From a virus, in the IMG/VR virus record IMGVR_UViG_3300022744_000105, positions 1 to 22,326 of that record: DNA of 22,326 bases, one strand, 5' to 3'. Position 1 is the first letter of the stretch. Each line of letters starts with the position of its first letter. The notes below the pieces were generated by a model. It worked only from the letters and a program-made list of their open reading frames with translations. It did not search any database and was not told the DNA's origin. Positions 4,765-22,051 of the stretch are shown here, one piece after another. Made by a program: the position numbers and the translations under genes.

Positions 4765-5592
4765 TAGGTTGAACCTTCAGCTTTTTAGGTTTGTTGGCGC
4801 TCGCAAGGTAAGCGCCGTCAAGCCTTAATATCGCTTTTAGTTCCCAACGGTCAAGCGGTTGTTTATTTAGTTGCGTCCAAGCTAGAATATCGGAGTATTG
4901 AAGCGGCAAAACTCCAAACCCGTTGTTTGTTCTTTGGCGTGACAAGTCTAAGAAGAAACCCCACAAGTAACCTAGCTGTTCTGGCGCTTTTGGCGCTTCG
5001 TCTAGCTCTTGCGGCTTGACGCCGGTTGAACGCCAAGCCGCTAACAAGTGGTCTTTCTTAGAATAGCCGTCTTCAAGCTTGCGGCTTAGTTCAAAGTCGT
5101 ATTCTGCAAACTCTAAAAGTTCAGCCGCAAGACTTACATAAAATTTTCAAGGTCGCCAATGGCTTCATCAACCTGACGGCGGAACCAAAGCAAGTTACTG
5201 TAAAGCTTCTTGGCGTTGGCAACGGTAAAGGCGAGTTCTTCACCCTTATAAGTGATTGTTGACTTGAAGTTGTCGCCTTCAATCCGCTGACGCCATCCAA
5301 CAGTGCAAACAACCAAAAGGTCAGTTGCCTTTTCTTCAGCTTCTTCAGCGGTTGGCGGGGCAACGTCTTTGCCGCGCTTGTCGGCAAGTGCTTGGCGGCG
5401 AATGCGCGTGTTAACGTCTTCCTTAACGTGTTGCCGGAAAACTTCGCTGTCTTTGCCAAGAATGGTAACGAAAATCCCGACTGGCTCGCCGGTTGTCGGG
5501 TGGCGCAACTCAATTTCAGCGCCCTTGTCACACGCGGCGCAAGTGTCGAGCGCGTCAAGGTCAAGCGGCGCGGCGGTCTTTTTGGTGGTCAT
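4739..5592 (-). CDS. tail assembly chaperone G-T fusion by -1 frameshift
   Basis: A second reading frame continues past the G stop. Slipping back one base at the heptamer at 5140-5146 joins 151 codons of G to 133 codons ending in TAA at 4739, giving about 284 aa. The T part starts YVSLAAELLEFAEYDFELSR and has no plausible start of its own at its beginning; the only start-like codon is a TTG 31 codons in. The open frame runs to 16 codons from the tape-measure gene and reads as a protein, with an acidic helix followed by W-rich segments (LGYLWGFFLDLSR, LAWTQLNKQPLDRWELK). Family knowledge: lambda gpG/gpGT-type chaperones bind the tape measure and recruit tube subunits, and the minor frameshifted form is essential. 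The slip itself is predicted, not measured. Confidence 0.85.
5078..5131 (-). promoter_or_regulatory. stimulatory stem-loop for the -1 frameshift
   Basis: CTTGCGGCT (5131-5123) pairs perfectly with AGCCGCAAG (5086-5078) over 9 bp, with a 36-nt loop. The stem begins 8 nt after the slippery heptamer, inside the usual 5-9 nt spacing for frameshift stimulators. The loop holds a smaller possible pairing (AACT with AGTT) and could also support a pseudoknot. Confidence 0.7.
5134..5592 (-). CDS. tail assembly chaperone G
   Basis: This 152-aa protein lies between the tail tube and the tape measure, the fixed place of the lambda gpG family. It starts with a Lys/Ala-rich tail, then a beta segment (about 27-46: IELRHPTTGEPVGIFVTILG), a charged helical middle (about 52-90), and ends YSNLLWFRRQVDEAIGDLENFM; phage chaperones of this type often carry the LxWFRRQV-like ending. 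The stop TAA at 5134-5136 comes two codons after the slippery heptamer, so ribosomes that do not slip end here. ATG was chosen because nothing upstream in frame has a ribosome site. The G role is confident from order and from the frameshift signal. Confidence 0.85.
   Translation of the reverse strand: MTTKKTAAPLDLDALDTCAACDKGAEIELRHPTTGEPVGIFVTILGKDSEVFRQHVKEDVNTRIRRQALADKRGKDVAPPTAEEAEEKATDLLVVCTVGWRQRIEGDNFKSTITYKGEELAFTVANAKKLYSNLLWFRRQVDEAIGDLENFM
5140..5146 (-). promoter_or_regulatory. -1 ribosomal slippery heptamer AAATTTT
   Basis: On the minus strand the zero frame reads GAA AAT TTT ATG TAA, giving the canonical X XXY YYZ form A-AAT-TTT. After a -1 slip both tRNAs re-pair (AAT to AAA at two of three positions, TTT to TTT), and the frame opens to the T extension instead of the TAA. 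The -1 frame has a TGA just upstream of the heptamer, so the extension can be reached only at or after this point. Confidence 0.85.
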
Positions 5593-5611
5593 GGTGCCAG
5601 GTTCCTAAGTT

Positions 5612-5635
5612 AAAGAAATAGCCGCTTACGGCGGC
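5612..5635 (-). terminator. weak stem-loop between tail tube and chaperone genes
   Basis: In the 103-bp gap before the chaperone gene, GCCGC and GCGGC form a 5-bp stem with a 5-nt loop, followed on the minus strand by TATTTCTTT. It is short for an intrinsic terminator but well placed to reduce readthrough from the abundant tail tube message to the low-abundance chaperone and tape measure. The same gap also has a 7-bp inverted repeat, TGTTGAC/GTCAACA (5642-5648 and 5669-5675). Confidence 0.35.
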
Positions 5636-5695
5636 AAGTCGTGTTGACTATTGGTTATTGCCTAGCCGGTCAACAAACGTGGCAACCGTTACGCC

Positions 5696-6925
5696 TTAGA
5701 CAAAGGCGCTGTCTTGAATGCTAATGGTTGTGGGCAAGTCAACAGTGGAACCGCTGACATTTTCCAACGCCGTGAAAGGCATTGTCAAGGTCAGGCCCGC
5801 CGTTCCATCATCCTTGGACGCGCCGCCAAACTTGCAACGTGACATAACAAAAGCCGTGAAGCCAGCGTTGGCCGCGTTGCTTGCTTCAAGAGCAACGGCA
5901 ATGCTTGCTTCAGTTTCGTTAACAAACATATCGCGGTAAGTCGCATTCTGAAAGAAAACGGTAATTTGGCCGCTGACTTCAAGAACGCCAGGGAAAACGT
6001 CAGGGTCAACGTTCGCGCCAACCACGCCACCAGGCACGGAATAATTGCCGTTAATGGTAATGGTCATTCCCGTAATGGTTGCAACGGGAACGCCAGCCAC
6101 CAACAGCACGCCATTGACAGCAGCGAGAATGCCGCCCGTTGGCGCGGCGGCTGGTGTGGTGAAGTATTCAACCACGCCGCTTTGCATATCAAGGCCCATA
6201 ACGGGAAATTCAACCGTTGCCATGCCAGTTGGGGGCAACTGGATGGTTGCGCCAGTAAAAACGCAATCGGTGAATTGCTCGCTTTGGGCAATATCGCTGA
6301 ACCAGTGTTCAATGGTGTAATAATCGCGAGTGTGGCCACTTTGGGGAACCCAAGTCTTTTTGCCAACAAGCGTGCAAGTCACACTGTCGCCCGCCGCCTT
6401 CGCGCCAACCGCCACGCCGTCAAGCGTAATCACGGTCATAACCGTTGCGGTCAGCGCCGCAATCATCATGTTGTGTGCATTGTTAGGAACGCCAGTAGTT
6501 GCCCAACCCGTCCATTGCACAACGTCACCAATCTTGAAACCGTCAGTGATATATGAGCCAGCCGAACGGGTGAAAGTGCCAGTGTTGCTACCAGTGCTTG
6601 CCGCCGTGACAGTGATAAGCGCGCCGCTGGTTGCAGCCGCTTGAACAACTTGACGGCAAACACTTTCAAACGGCTTCTGATAACCGCCAACGGAAAGTTC
6701 ACCCGAAATAGAACCAGCAACCTTGCGCACGCCGTGGCGAAAATCGCGGCGCTGTTGCGAAGCCAGAATTTCGCCTGAAGAATAGGTTGCCTTGGACAAG
6801 TCAAGCGTTGACGTAACCCGGCGCATATATTGAGCCGTGCCAGCGCCGCCGCTAGGCGCTTTGGTGTTAAGCGCGGTTTGCTTTTTGAGCGAAAGCTTTT
6901 TGAAAACGCCAGTTGCAATAGCCAT
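5696..6925 (-). CDS. major tail tube protein
   Basis: The 409-aa product follows the pattern of the large tail tube family seen in many proteobacterial siphophages (Phage_tube_2 type): N-terminal SLKKQTALNTKA, then SSGEILASQQRRDFRHGVRKVAGSISGELSVGGYQKPFE (about residues 49-87), and a beta-rich body with many Thr, Val and Gly. It lies between an 87-aa small structural protein and the tail chaperone, as expected. Length is above lambda gpV (246 aa), so extra surface or inserted domains are likely; the stretch around 95-185 looks like an insertion rich in Ala and Thr. ATG has an AAAGGG ribosome site 9 nt upstream. The tube role is strongly supported by order. Confidence 0.88.
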   Translation of the reverse strand: MAIATGVFKKLSLKKQTALNTKAPSGGAGTAQYMRRVTSTLDLSKATYSSGEILASQQRRDFRHGVRKVAGSISGELSVGGYQKPFESVCRQVVQAAATSGALITVTAASTGSNTGTFTRSAGSYITDGFKIGDVVQWTGWATTGVPNNAHNMMIAALTATVMTVITLDGVAVGAKAAGDSVTCTLVGKKTWVPQSGHTRDYYTIEHWFSDIAQSEQFTDCVFTGATIQLPPTGMATVEFPVMGLDMQSGVVEYFTTPAAAPTGGILAAVNGVLLVAGVPVATITGMTITINGNYSVPGGVVGANVDPDVFPGVLEVSGQITVFFQNATYRDMFVNETEASIAVALEASNAANAGFTAFVMSRCKFGGASKDDGTAGLTLTMPFTALENVSGSTVDLPTTISIQDSAFV

Positions 6926-11399: not shown

Positions 11400-11552
11400 T
11401 TAAGACAAAAACGCTTTTGCAAGGGCAATGGCGTCTTCAACTAACGTTTTGTCTTGGCTGTTAAGCGTTGACAAATCAATTTTCAAAAGCTCGCTTAGCA
11501 TTTTCTGCCATTCGGCTTTAGGTGAAAATTCATTAGGCGTTTCAATTATCAT
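11400..11552 (-). CDS. 50-aa coupled small protein
   Basis: A short ORF, MIIETPNEFSPKAEWQKML onward, starts with an ATG that overlaps the stop of the minor head gene (ATGA) and ends with TAA at 11400. The protein is helical and acidic with regular Leu spacing (LSELLKIDLSTLNSQ, then LVEDAIALAKAFLS). The overlap and codon use like its neighbours make it credible. I do not recognise it. About 110 bp of apparently non-coding DNA follows before the scaffold gene, with no clear structure. Its tight link to the MuF-JAB gene makes it a candidate partner or inhibitor of that protein, which is speculation. Confidence 0.6.
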   Translation of the reverse strand: MIIETPNEFSPKAEWQKMLSELLKIDLSTLNSQDKTLVEDAIALAKAFLS

Positions 11553-13201
11553 TGTTCAAACACCTTCAAAAACTCGCCAATGTAAAACTTGTTTTTGTTG
11601 AAGCTGGCTTTAGCCGCTTCGCTATGCTCAAAAGAATAAACAATTTTCTTTTGATTATGCAAAGCCAAGTTAACAACGTGTGCGTAATGGTCATTAAAAG
11701 CCTTAACATCAATGTAACCGGCTTTAACAAGGGGTTTGAAAAACTTGTTAAGTTTTACTTCAACAGCTTTTATAGCCCCTTGGCTAAGCTTATCGCTTTC
11801 AGCGTAAAAGCTTGAACCTTCGTGCGAGTGCGCCCAAAGACCTTTTAAGCCTGGATTGTTGGCAACTTCCATCAAATCTTGTGGGCTTAGCGAAATAGGG
11901 CGGTTAATCGGGTGGTTGTGGTGTGCAACAATTTCGTTTTTAGGGTCAGCAACAAGCTTGTTAAAATTGTCAGACGTTTGAATATAGCTTTTGCCGTTTG
12001 CTTTCATAACGTCAGAAATAGGGTTGCCGCTTTTATTATCAAAAGCCGCCATGTGTTCATTTTTGTCTTTGAAACCTTTTGATAAAACTTCACTTTTTGC
12101 TTTTTCATTAGACTTGACTAAAATTTCACCAATGCTTTGTTCATTGGCTTTAGCGGTGCGGCTAGTTACGCCAGCGCGCAAAGCCTCCAAGCTGACCGGC
12201 CTGCCCTGACCGTCAACCAAGTCTTTAAGCGTAATCTTGCCTTCGCGCCAAAGGTCAGCGCGCCCAACGCCTAAAACTTGGTCTTGATAAGCTTTGCCCT
12301 TGCGTTCAAGATAGTCATTAAAGCTTGTGTTAACGTCAACTTGACCGTCAGAACTTGCGCGAGTAGTGGCAGGAGCTTCAGGAATGTTTAAGCCCATTTC
12401 CTTAAAGCTTTTCGTTATAGGAACTTCAAGCGAACGGCATTTGAAATGTCTAGGCGTGCCGCCATTGTAAGACAACTTTTTAGGGCCAAGTGGTTCAAAG
12501 TCCAAGTTCCAACTTTCGCCGCTATAGGCAACACAAGTCAAGCTTGTGTGACCGTCAAGCGTGCTTACTTGCTTCAACCCTTTAACAATGTCACTATTGG
12601 CCTTAAAGGTTTGCCGCCGCGCATCATTAGCAACAGTTTGAATTGACGTATGCACCAAGCTAGCAGCATCGCGCCGCGCAATGTCCATAACACCGGGAAC
12701 GCCAGCTTTGCCCACAATGCGGGCGGTTATTTGCTGGTTTGTCTCGCCATTCGCTAGACCTTGGCGCACTTGGGCGGCAAACTTGGTCTTGATATTCTCG
12801 CTTTGGCCGCGCCACCAATCCGCGCTAGGAGCGCCTTGAATTAGAACGTCACTGTTCAGCGATTTGAAATAGTCGCTAGGTGGAACGGCAACGGCTTCTT
12901 TGTCAAAGACAACGTGCAAAGCGTTGGCGGCATGGTCAGCCACCATTTCAGCAATTCCCTTTTTGTCAATGCTGTCTTGAATGTTTTTATAATGCTTGTC
13001 AATAATTTCGTCAGTGTCGCCAATGACCTTTTCAAGCTTTTTGCGTTCCGAAAAGTCAAGGTCTTCTTCAGCCAATCGCTTCAAAAGTTCCTTTTCCATA
13101 TCTTTCAAGCGCGCAAAGGTTAGCGCCCTTTCGTGTGCTGACAAACGCAAAACATCAATTGCATTTGTCAACACCGCATCAAAAAGTTCTTGGTCAATCA
13201 T
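11549..13201 (-). CDS. minor head protein (MuF / SPP1 gp7 type) with JAB-like C-terminal domain
   Basis: The 550-aa protein has two parts. Residues about 1-80 are helical; about 135-262 match the phage Mu F/SPP1 gp7 head morphogenesis domain (ARRDAASLVHTSIQTVANDARR at 175-196, then LDGHTSLTCVAYSGESW and the ending GTPRHFKCRS at 248-257). About 295-345 is the frequent RADLWREGKITLKDLVDGQGRP linker. From about 380 a second domain reads like a RadC/JAB metalloprotease: Glu382 in NEHMAAFDNKSGNPI, then H428-x-H430-P431, and S439-x-x-D442, spaced as H-x-H-x8-S-x2-D. Family knowledge: JAB domains bind zinc and cleave isopeptide or peptide bonds, while MuF proteins can carry toxins into hosts. The end (about 470-550) is basic and helical. 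ATG overlaps the portal stop (ATGA). The domain call is by eye. Confidence 0.85.
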   Translation of the reverse strand: MIDQELFDAVLTNAIDVLRLSAHERALTFARLKDMEKELLKRLAEEDLDFSERKKLEKVIGDTDEIIDKHYKNIQDSIDKKGIAEMVADHAANALHVVFDKEAVAVPPSDYFKSLNSDVLIQGAPSADWWRGQSENIKTKFAAQVRQGLANGETNQQITARIVGKAGVPGVMDIARRDAASLVHTSIQTVANDARRQTFKANSDIVKGLKQVSTLDGHTSLTCVAYSGESWNLDFEPLGPKKLSYNGGTPRHFKCRSLEVPITKSFKEMGLNIPEAPATTRASSDGQVDVNTSFNDYLERKGKAYQDQVLGVGRADLWREGKITLKDLVDGQGRPVSLEALRAGVTSRTAKANEQSIGEILVKSNEKAKSEVLSKGFKDKNEHMAAFDNKSGNPISDVMKANGKSYIQTSDNFNKLVADPKNEIVAHHNHPINRPISLSPQDLMEVANNPGLKGLWAHSHEGSSFYAESDKLSQGAIKAVEVKLNKFFKPLVKAGYIDVKAFNDHYAHVVNLALHNQKKIVYSFEHSEAAKASFNKNKFYIGEFLKVFEQ

Positions 13202-20365: not shown

Positions 20366-20872
20366 TTATTTTCCCAAATAGTGCAAAATTGCGTTTCGCG
20401 CCGCTTCCCAACCGTGGCACACTTCAACCGCATAGCCAGCGCTTTTCAGATAGTCGCTCCAATCGTCTTGAACAGGGCTTGTCTTGCCAGCCGCCCCGCG
20501 TGTTGACTTCAGGCGCTTAAGTTCAATGTAAAGACCATGATAATAAGCGTTATAAACGCTTATACGCGCTGGCACTGGCAACATAACGTCAGGCACGCCA
20601 GCCTTGACGCCTTCAGCCTTAGACATTGCGCCGCGTATTGCATCACCGTGGCCAGCGTTCTTGATTGCAAATAGCCAGCGAAGTTCAGGCAACAAAGGCC
20701 CGCCGCGTTCCATATAGCAACGCCTAGCGTAACCCGGCAAAATGTAGCTTTCGCGGTCATTGGCTTGAAGCAAGCCAAAGTTAGCGGCCATGTTTGCCCA
20801 CATAAACAAGGCCGCTTGTTCAGCGTATTCATTGCGGGTTTTTTCCGCATAGCTCCAAGGGTCAAGCGCCAT
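20366..20872 (-). CDS. VRR-NUC domain nuclease
   Basis: The 168-aa protein has the VRR-NUC signature, a PD-(D/E)xK nuclease: E18 in the first helix, KAEGVKAGVPDVMLP with Asp95, then GLYIELKR with Glu117 and Lys119, followed by SPVQDDWSDYLKSAGYAVEVCHGWEAA (about 132-158), the typical closing strand. Family knowledge: related to FAN1 and phage nucleases that act on branched or flapped DNA. The ATG lies 11 bp inside the DUF3850 gene, so the two are translated together. The catalytic residues are all present, so it should be active. Confidence 0.85.
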   Translation of the reverse strand: MALDPWSYAEKTRNEYAEQAALFMWANMAANFGLLQANDRESYILPGYARRCYMERGGPLLPELRWLFAIKNAGHGDAIRGAMSKAEGVKAGVPDVMLPVPARISVYNAYYHGLYIELKRLKSTRGAAGKTSPVQDDWSDYLKSAGYAVEVCHGWEAARNAILHYLGK

Positions 20873-21128
20873 TGGTCAAACTCCCAAAGCCAAGAATGCA
20901 ATAGCCGTTCATTATGGCGGCTGGCATATCCTCTTTTCTGAAAATGTAAGCAACCTTAAAGATTAGCGGGCCTTGGCCAGTATAGCCGCTTAGCGGGTCA
21001 TATTCGCTAAGGGCCACCGTGTCACCAACCTTAAACTTTCTGTCGTCACGCCTGACTTGAAAGTTCAAGTTGCCGCTAACAACTTCCTTCCAAAAGCGAG
21101 GGTAAACCTTAAGCGCGTGTTGTGTCAT
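20862..21128 (-). CDS. DUF3850 (ASCH/PUA-like) protein
   Basis: The 88-aa protein matches DUF3850 well: HALKVYPRFWKEVVSGNLNFQVRRDDRKFKVGDTVALSEYD (about 4-44), SGYTGQGPLIFKVAYI and GYCILGF near the end. This is a small ASCH-like domain whose relatives bind RNA or modified bases. It overlaps the nuclease gene by 11 bp. DUF3850 proteins are frequent in phage accessory blocks; the exact role is unknown. Confidence 0.82.
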   Translation of the reverse strand: MTQHALKVYPRFWKEVVSGNLNFQVRRDDRKFKVGDTVALSEYDPLSGYTGQGPLIFKVAYIFRKEDMPAAIMNGYCILGFGSLTNGA

Positions 21129-21247: not shown

Positions 21248-21493
21248 TCACTGACTAACCTTAACGGTCAGCTTCCATTCAACCAAATGCACTAACAGCG
21301 GGTCAAACACAAGCTGAAATTTGCTGTCGCATTCCTCTTGAATTTTAGCGAAAACGTCTTTCAGCTTTTTAGCTAGGTCTTCATCGCTGTCAAAGTCAAA
21401 AGCTTCAACGTGCTGTCTGTTGTGCAAGTCAACGTATTTGATAACGTATGACTTGACATTGCAAACGCCGTAAATTGCGACTTTCTGGCGCAC
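21248..21493 (-). CDS. 81-aa hypothetical protein (GTG start)
   Basis: GTG at 21493 starts two bases after the stop of the helicase-like gene, with an AAGAAG stretch as a weak ribosome site. The product reads as an alpha/beta fold: VAIYGVCNVKSYVIKYVD strands, an acidic turn (DFDSDEDLAKKLKDVFAKIQEE), then FQLVFDPLLVHLVEWKLTV. Not recognised. It may be translated along with the upstream gene. Confidence 0.5.
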   Translation of the reverse strand: MRQKVAIYGVCNVKSYVIKYVDLHNRQHVEAFDFDSDEDLAKKLKDVFAKIQEECDSKFQLVFDPLLVHLVEWKLTVKVSQ

Positions 21494-21495
21494 TG

Positions 21496-21912
21496 TTATA
21501 GCTTCTTACGCTTTGGCTTGTTATGAATTTGATAATCGTAAACCGACGTAATGTTAGGGTCAGCAATCGGCTTGTTTCGCTTACCCCTGCCCACAATCTG
21601 ACGATAAGCGAGCGGCGCTAACGTGTATTCATCAATAAACGCACAATCTAACTTAATGCCAAAGCATTCAAAATCAACAACCACAATGTCACGGCGTGAA
21701 GCGTAATCTTGAACAACAGCTTTAGGGTAAAGCCCGTTGCCGTTAAGCCCTAAAGCTTCGCTCCAATCGTCACACGGGTCAGAATGCGCCAGGTGCCAAA
21801 GTTCAGGGCGAAGGGCGCGGCCATACCATTGCAAACTTCTAATGAAGCTTTTGCCGTCACGCTTGATAGCGTCCATTAACTCTTGCTGATAAGGGTAAAG
21901 CTTAACTGACAT
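21496..21912 (-). CDS. miniature SF2 helicase-like protein without Walker motifs
   Basis: I chose ATG 21912 (138 aa), with GAAGG before it; it starts 4 bp after the 44-aa gene. Residues 4-16 (KLYPYQQELMDAI) resemble the Q-motif region that starts superfamily 2 helicases, and residues 75-112 (DIVVVDFECFGIKLDCAFID, then YRQIVGRGKR) resemble motifs V and VI including Q-x-x-GR-x-x-R. The P-loop and DEAD-box regions that should lie between are missing: only about 60 residues separate them, without GKT. It ends in a basic tail (NKPKRKKL). So it is either a deleted helicase relic or a small protein that mimics a helicase C-terminal lobe. The motif reading is by eye. Confidence 0.55.
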   Translation of the reverse strand: MSVKLYPYQQELMDAIKRDGKSFIRSLQWYGRALRPELWHLAHSDPCDDWSEALGLNGNGLYPKAVVQDYASRRDIVVVDFECFGIKLDCAFIDEYTLAPLAYRQIVGRGKRNKPIADPNITSVYDYQIHNKPKRKKL

Positions 21913-21916
21913 TGGC

Positions 21917-22051
21917 TTAACCTTCCACAACCTGAACTTCAGACTTCTTGCAAGGCAACCAGCGGCGAGCAAGTTTGCTATAATAGAAAAACTTGCCGTT
22001 GGTTTCCTTAACTTCAAAAGTCTTGCCATACTTGTTAAGAACCAGTGCCAT
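21917..22051 (-). CDS. 44-aa hypothetical protein, first gene of the block
   Basis: ATG 22051 has GGAG 9 nt upstream. The product (MALVLNKYGKTFEVKETNGK, then FFYYSKLARRWLPCKKSEV) is basic with a row of aromatics and one Cys, like a small nucleic-acid binding beta domain. It ends TAA at 21917, 4 bp before the next ATG. It would be the first gene transcribed from the candidate promoter at 22082-22110. Not recognised. Confidence 0.6.
   Translation of the reverse strand: MALVLNKYGKTFEVKETNGKFFYYSKLARRWLPCKKSEVQVVEG

Follow-up and report, generated by a model that had tools for sequence, protein, structure and literature searches.

The window analyzed in this study, i.e., the whole 22,326-base virus record IMGVR_UViG_3300022744_000105, represents the structural half of a siphovirus and looks like a fragment of a phage genome. 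Its clear genes, all located on the minus strand, encode a terminase, a head morphogenesis protein, an amidase, MazG, a VRR-NUC nuclease, and a DUF3850 protein, along with what we take, from reading of the translations, to be the portal, capsid, and tail tape measure proteins. The closest relatives of this phage were uncultured phages, with identities of up to 89% for the terminase and up to 70% for VRR-NUC. In addition, the head morphogenesis protein (window positions 11549 to 13201) comprises 550 amino acids (aa), compared with 352 aa in the version of one sister phage (L002), and its extra C-terminal part carries HHNHPINRPISLSPQD, which by eye is similar to the JAB metalloprotease signature HxHP...S..D; the only Pfam match of this protein was a sub-threshold one to Phage_Mu_F at 140 to 256. 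The genes from VRR-NUC to the contig end are as follows, with about 260 AT-rich bases, devoid of a convincing gene, preceding the first small gene (44 aa) at that end.

20366..20872, minus strand: VRR-NUC nuclease (PF08774, 29.9 bits, above the cut-off of 23.8)
20862..21128, minus strand: DUF3850 protein (PF12961, 70.8 bits; relatives lie upstream of VRR-NUC in the sister records L013 and L014)
21248..21493, minus strand: 81-aa orphan gene with a GTG start, downstream of the 138-aa gene (codon score 0.331; no phage match at E 1)
21496..21912, minus strand: 138-aa orphan protein with helicase-like ends (open frame, codon score, ribosome site)
21917..22051, minus strand: 44-aa gene of no known family, upstream of the 138-aa gene (codon score 0.685; no phage match below E 0.2)

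The 138-aa gene is very probably real and translated. Its frame, running from 21912 to 21496, consists of 138 codons without a stop, its ATG is preceded at a good distance by a GGAAGG ribosome site (21926 to 21921), and it starts 4 nt past the 44-aa gene and ends 2 nt short of the 81-aa gene. Moreover, among the six frames this one scored best for codon usage, with +0.24 bits per codon versus −0.05 for the runner-up. These results bear out the initial annotation, which had described an intact reading frame with a good start.

To the extent of the collections searched, the 138-aa protein is an orphan. It reached no family threshold: Pfam, NCBIfam, and PADLOC returned zero matches, and the single match in PHROGs was a weak one to phrog_16, a DNA helicase family (E 0.19, residues 88 to 131). 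Queries of viral contigs with the whole protein, its C-terminal part, its N-terminal part, or degenerate versions (artificial variants used solely to widen the search patterns) revealed no relatives, nor did these contigs contain the peptide YRQIVGRG[KR]R as an exact match, with the limit that such searches rely on short exact or degenerate stretches and could let distant relatives escape. No relative was detected in genome contigs, and among approximately 800 whole bacterial genomes, matches either contained stops or occurred at the expected chance rate; one of them (L207) was by eye an RHS-like repeat protein. Beyond a 30% match to hypothetical proteins of Agrobacterium phage Atu_ph07 (E 0.4) and one plasmid match (E 8), both disregarded, tblastn of phage records and plasmids gave no relatives, and the PDB sequence search gave no meaningful match. 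Likewise, none of the 36 sister-phage records held a relative, including those of phages with 81 to 89% identical terminase. A literature search found no paper relevant to a phage helicase fragment devoid of the ATPase.

Of the 36 related records, 10 carry a helicase with Helicase_C and 11 carry one with ResIII. One of them, L095 (ResIII at 7 to 172, Helicase_C at 258 to 353), was assigned to phrog_16 with an E value of 7e-80, and thus the sole library match of the orphan is to the helicase family that its kin carry. In seven sister genomes (G002, G003, G004, G006, G007, G009, and G010), the helicase and the VRR-NUC/terminase operon are on opposite strands and, by contig coordinates, many kilobases apart; therefore, the 138-aa orphan is not at the locus of the helicase. 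Helicase-bearing and terminase-bearing contigs were observed together in metagenome 3300017412 (L114 and L014) and in metagenome 3300049825 (L115 and L002), and each pair looks like the two halves of one phage, which suggests that the phage of the window encodes its full helicase in the half that is missing here. In one sister-type helicase (L173, around position 1501), Walker A is apparently split by an intein-like sequence (NPVVAMPTG-CHAKGTEILMYDGSIKAIENI...).

The motif-like segments of the 138-aa protein, scored in bits against a profile of the sister helicases, are as follows.

21865..21912, minus strand: residues 1 to 16, MSVKLYPYQQELMDAI, Q-motif-like start (21.8 bits)
21847..21855, minus strand: residues 20 to 22, GKS, outside a Walker A context (read from the sequence)
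21808..21831, minus strand: residues 28 to 35, QWYGRALR, first QxxGRxxR string (residues 28 to 36, 16.0 bits versus motif VI)
21673..21696, minus strand: residues 73 to 80, RRDIVVVD, resembling the strand before motif II (16.1 bits)
21628..21639, minus strand: residues 92 to 95, FIDE, Walker B-like (residues 89 to 95, 13.4 bits versus DLLIIDE, within the range of chance segments)
21577..21600, minus strand: residues 105 to 112, QIVGRGKR, motif VI-like (residues 96 to 112, 17.7 bits)

Both ends singled out by the initial annotation are present, namely, the Q-motif-like string (VKLYPYQQELMDAI / LYPYQQELMDAI; counterpart in L095, HSVKLRWYQEEAVDAV) and the motif VI-like QIVGRGKR. Its statement that the protein has no P-loop or DEAD box is right as regards the glycine-rich loop of Walker A/motif I (GxxxxGKT/S), which is absent from the translation, and is too strong as regards the GKS located 12 residues past the Q motif, FIDE, and RRDIVVVD; the GKS was aligned to that of motif I by both MAFFT and dynamic programming and is not significant alone. 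Motif III (SAT/TAT) is absent from the translation. For motif V, the corresponding profile block scored at best 1.7 bits, at residue 104 and in the wrong place, and the reading of DFECFGIKLDCAFIDE as motif V is not supported. In addition, motif VI-like strings occur twice (28 to 36 and 105 to 112), as do motif II-like strings (73 to 80 and 89 to 95); QWYGRALR had escaped the initial annotation. The best single segment of the protein reached only the ∼1% level of shuffles.

Between the ends, residues 17 to 86 behaved like shuffles against the second RecA domain (p 0.86), on which ground a fusion of the Q motif to a complete second RecA domain was rejected, and were weakly similar to the first (p 0.009 to 0.033; p 0.007 for the middle residues 61 to 86). 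The ungapped diagonal of the first RecA domain over residues 53 to 100 scored −14.6 bits, and the middle and tail of the protein gave p values of ∼0.02 and 0.01, respectively, when the gap cost was low and nothing when it was high. Two RecA-like domains are not present in the 138 aa, as against ResIII at 7 to 172 plus Helicase_C at 258 to 353 in L095. The structure prediction proposed by the initial annotation was run, and the AlphaFold2 pLDDT values of 47.7 (single sequence) and 42.5 (with aligned helicases) were too low to judge the fold either way. The notion of a protein that keeps the helicase ends and has lost the core survives insofar as the ends resemble one family; a tidy deletion of motifs I to III does not survive, considering that the middle is unlike the second RecA domain and only weakly like the first, that the motif II- and VI-like strings are doubled, and that motif V is missing. 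As the 138-aa protein lacks Walker A, SAT, and motif V, by which a helicase is defined, it should not be filed as one.

The helicase resemblance was quantified using a profile of 86 sister-phage helicases. By plain HMMER the 138-aa protein scored 4.1 bits, above 1,755 phage open reading frames (ORFs), and was outscored by 1 of 5,000 shuffles. Scores of 17.8 bits for the Q-motif block and 16.8 bits for the motif VI block corresponded to shuffle p values of 1e-4 and 5e-5, respectively (20,000 shuffles), and their summed score was matched by none of the 20,000, although both blocks had been picked after the match was seen. Among 2,587 ORFs, the other ORFs at the Q-block score were helicase fragments only, and none reached the motif VI score. 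Gapped alignment to the whole helicase profile, which involves no choice of blocks, gave 39.5 bits, compared with 38.9 for the highest-scoring of 20,000 shuffles (Gumbel p 5e-5), and profiles built in the same way for eight other phage families gave no signal (z −0.9 to 1.7). Kinship to the terminase family of the window's own phage was rejected, with a score of 29.2 close to the shuffled mean of 26.5. The protein outscored every non-helicase phage piece, and among 1,681 real bacterial pieces it ranked first with a gap cost of 6 and third with a gap cost of 8, where the two pieces ahead of it are, by our reading of the sequences, a DEAD-box helicase and an AAA+ ATPase resembling RarA. Its similarity to helicases equals in strength that shown by genuine distant relatives, and the resemblance is probably not due to chance. 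Given that the initial annotation could choose among ∼35 genes and many families, an accident retains a probability of a few per cent, which grows with wider choices.

The coding gene is intact, its helicase-like segments stand in helicase order beyond chance, and it has no catalytic core. On these grounds we tentatively favor, at just short of an even chance, the reading that the 138-aa protein is non-catalytic and was worn down from a phrog_16-type helicase, being now an evolving remnant or a dispensable accessory protein. Its origin would be a superfamily 2 helicase (ResIII plus Helicase_C) of the family carried by the sister phages, and the present gene would be a small, fast-evolving, translated one in the replication/accessory region of a siphovirus. 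A recognizable Q-motif start and a motif VI-like string would have been retained, whereas the loop of Walker A, SAT, motif V, and the greater part of the two RecA domains would have been lost or eroded, so that ATP hydrolysis and unwinding are not expected; any action of the protein would have to be by binding. The phrog_16 helicases (ResIII, PF04851, plus Helicase_C, PF00271) of the sister phages, e.g., L093 to L099, have ∼560 to 640 aa and share with the 138-aa protein a Q-motif-like start at the N terminus (in L095, SVKLxxYQxExxDA), a QxxGRGxR string close to the C terminus, and, arranged in the same order, weak similarities in PIxDPxI and in the motif II strand. Unlike these helicases of ∼570 aa, the 138-aa protein lacks Walker A, SAT, motif V, and the zinc-finger tail, and its gene occupies another locus on the opposite strand. 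Helicase descent and a non-essential role are what we infer, and several results stand against descent: ordinary searches (Pfam, NCBIfam, and PADLOC) were empty, HMMER gave just 4.1 bits, the similarity is weak or ambiguous in the middle and tail, and the gene does not sit where the sister phages have their helicase. The doubled motif II- and VI-like strings are also odd, as they are unexpected of a simple deletion product.

Close behind comes the main rival, which has a substantial chance of its own, namely, that this is an ordinary phage orphan with an unrelated fold in which LYPYQQE and QxxGRxxR are accidental likenesses picked from dozens of ORFs and many families. In its favor, the protein has no relatives anywhere searched, one weak library match (phrog_16 at E 0.19), a QxxGRxxR string that occurs twice, and a best segment at ∼1% of shuffles, and testing ∼35 genes against some 20 recognizable families at p 5e-5 yields a chance of a few per cent. 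Accident fits less well with a joint profile score beyond 20,000 shuffles, with a helicase-profile score that at strict gap cost is common to real ATPases only, and with the fact that the matched family is that of the sister phages. Another reading, related to phage large terminase subunits (ASCE ATPases), which likewise show a Q-motif-like start and a FIDE Walker B-like string, sees a shrunken P-loop domain, either terminase-like or consisting of the first RecA domain only, in which QWYGRA would be a degraded Walker A, FIDE would be a real Walker B, and QIVGRGKR would not be motif VI. This is the least probable of the readings: the fit of residues 17 to 86 to the first but not the second RecA domain, together with the 13.4 bits of FIDE versus motif II, speaks for it, but the −14.6 bits of the ungapped diagonal and a length of 138 aa, too short for a full first RecA domain, speak against it, and, unlike the terminases, the protein has no Walker A and gave no signal with the terminase family of its own phage.

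The initial annotation had gone further in suggesting a competitor or regulator. A retained decoy that has no ATPase activity and competes with, or regulates, a phage or host helicase by binding its DNA or a partner would agree with the intact frame, ribosome site, and codon signal, and the full helicase of the sister phages would be a possible target to modulate. We nevertheless consider it unlikely, given that the protein is conserved in no sister phage, even at 81 to 89% terminase identity, and has no confident fold. Moreover, the Q motif and motif VI of helicases work with bound ATP; without Walker A, ATP binding is not expected of the 138-aa protein, which therefore counts against such a role. 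A shade less probable again is the narrower proposal that a helicase gene turned into a small ATPase-less protein whose outer motifs, the only ones kept, would bind the substrate or partner of a full helicase as a competitor. With neither relatives, conservation, nor a confident fold to lean on, the suggested role gains no footing here. If descent from a phrog_16-type helicase is true, a helicase gene can erode to its outer motifs yet stay translated in a phage, and if the product is also functional, it would be a natural helicase decoy. As a singleton without relatives gives little leverage, the practical importance is low.

Two further features of the 138-aa gene were noticed. By inspection, the tail of its protein (YDYQIHNKPKRK, window positions 21496 to 21541) is similar to a basic stretch within or at the end of different small genes upstream of VRR-NUC in L005 (gene at 5321 to 5743, YDYQQHNRTRR) and L013 (gene at 733 to 1089, YDYRKHEKRGKR), and this likeness may be due to chance or may be a shared short signal. 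Within the gene, a perfect 10-nt inverted repeat (AGCTTTAGGG / CCCTAAAGCT, 20-nt spacing) is located at window positions 21718 to 21757 in a region encoding EALGLNGNGLYPKA, and one of its arms overlaps an in-frame 10-nt direct repeat, AGGGTAAAGC, present at 21724 and 21892.
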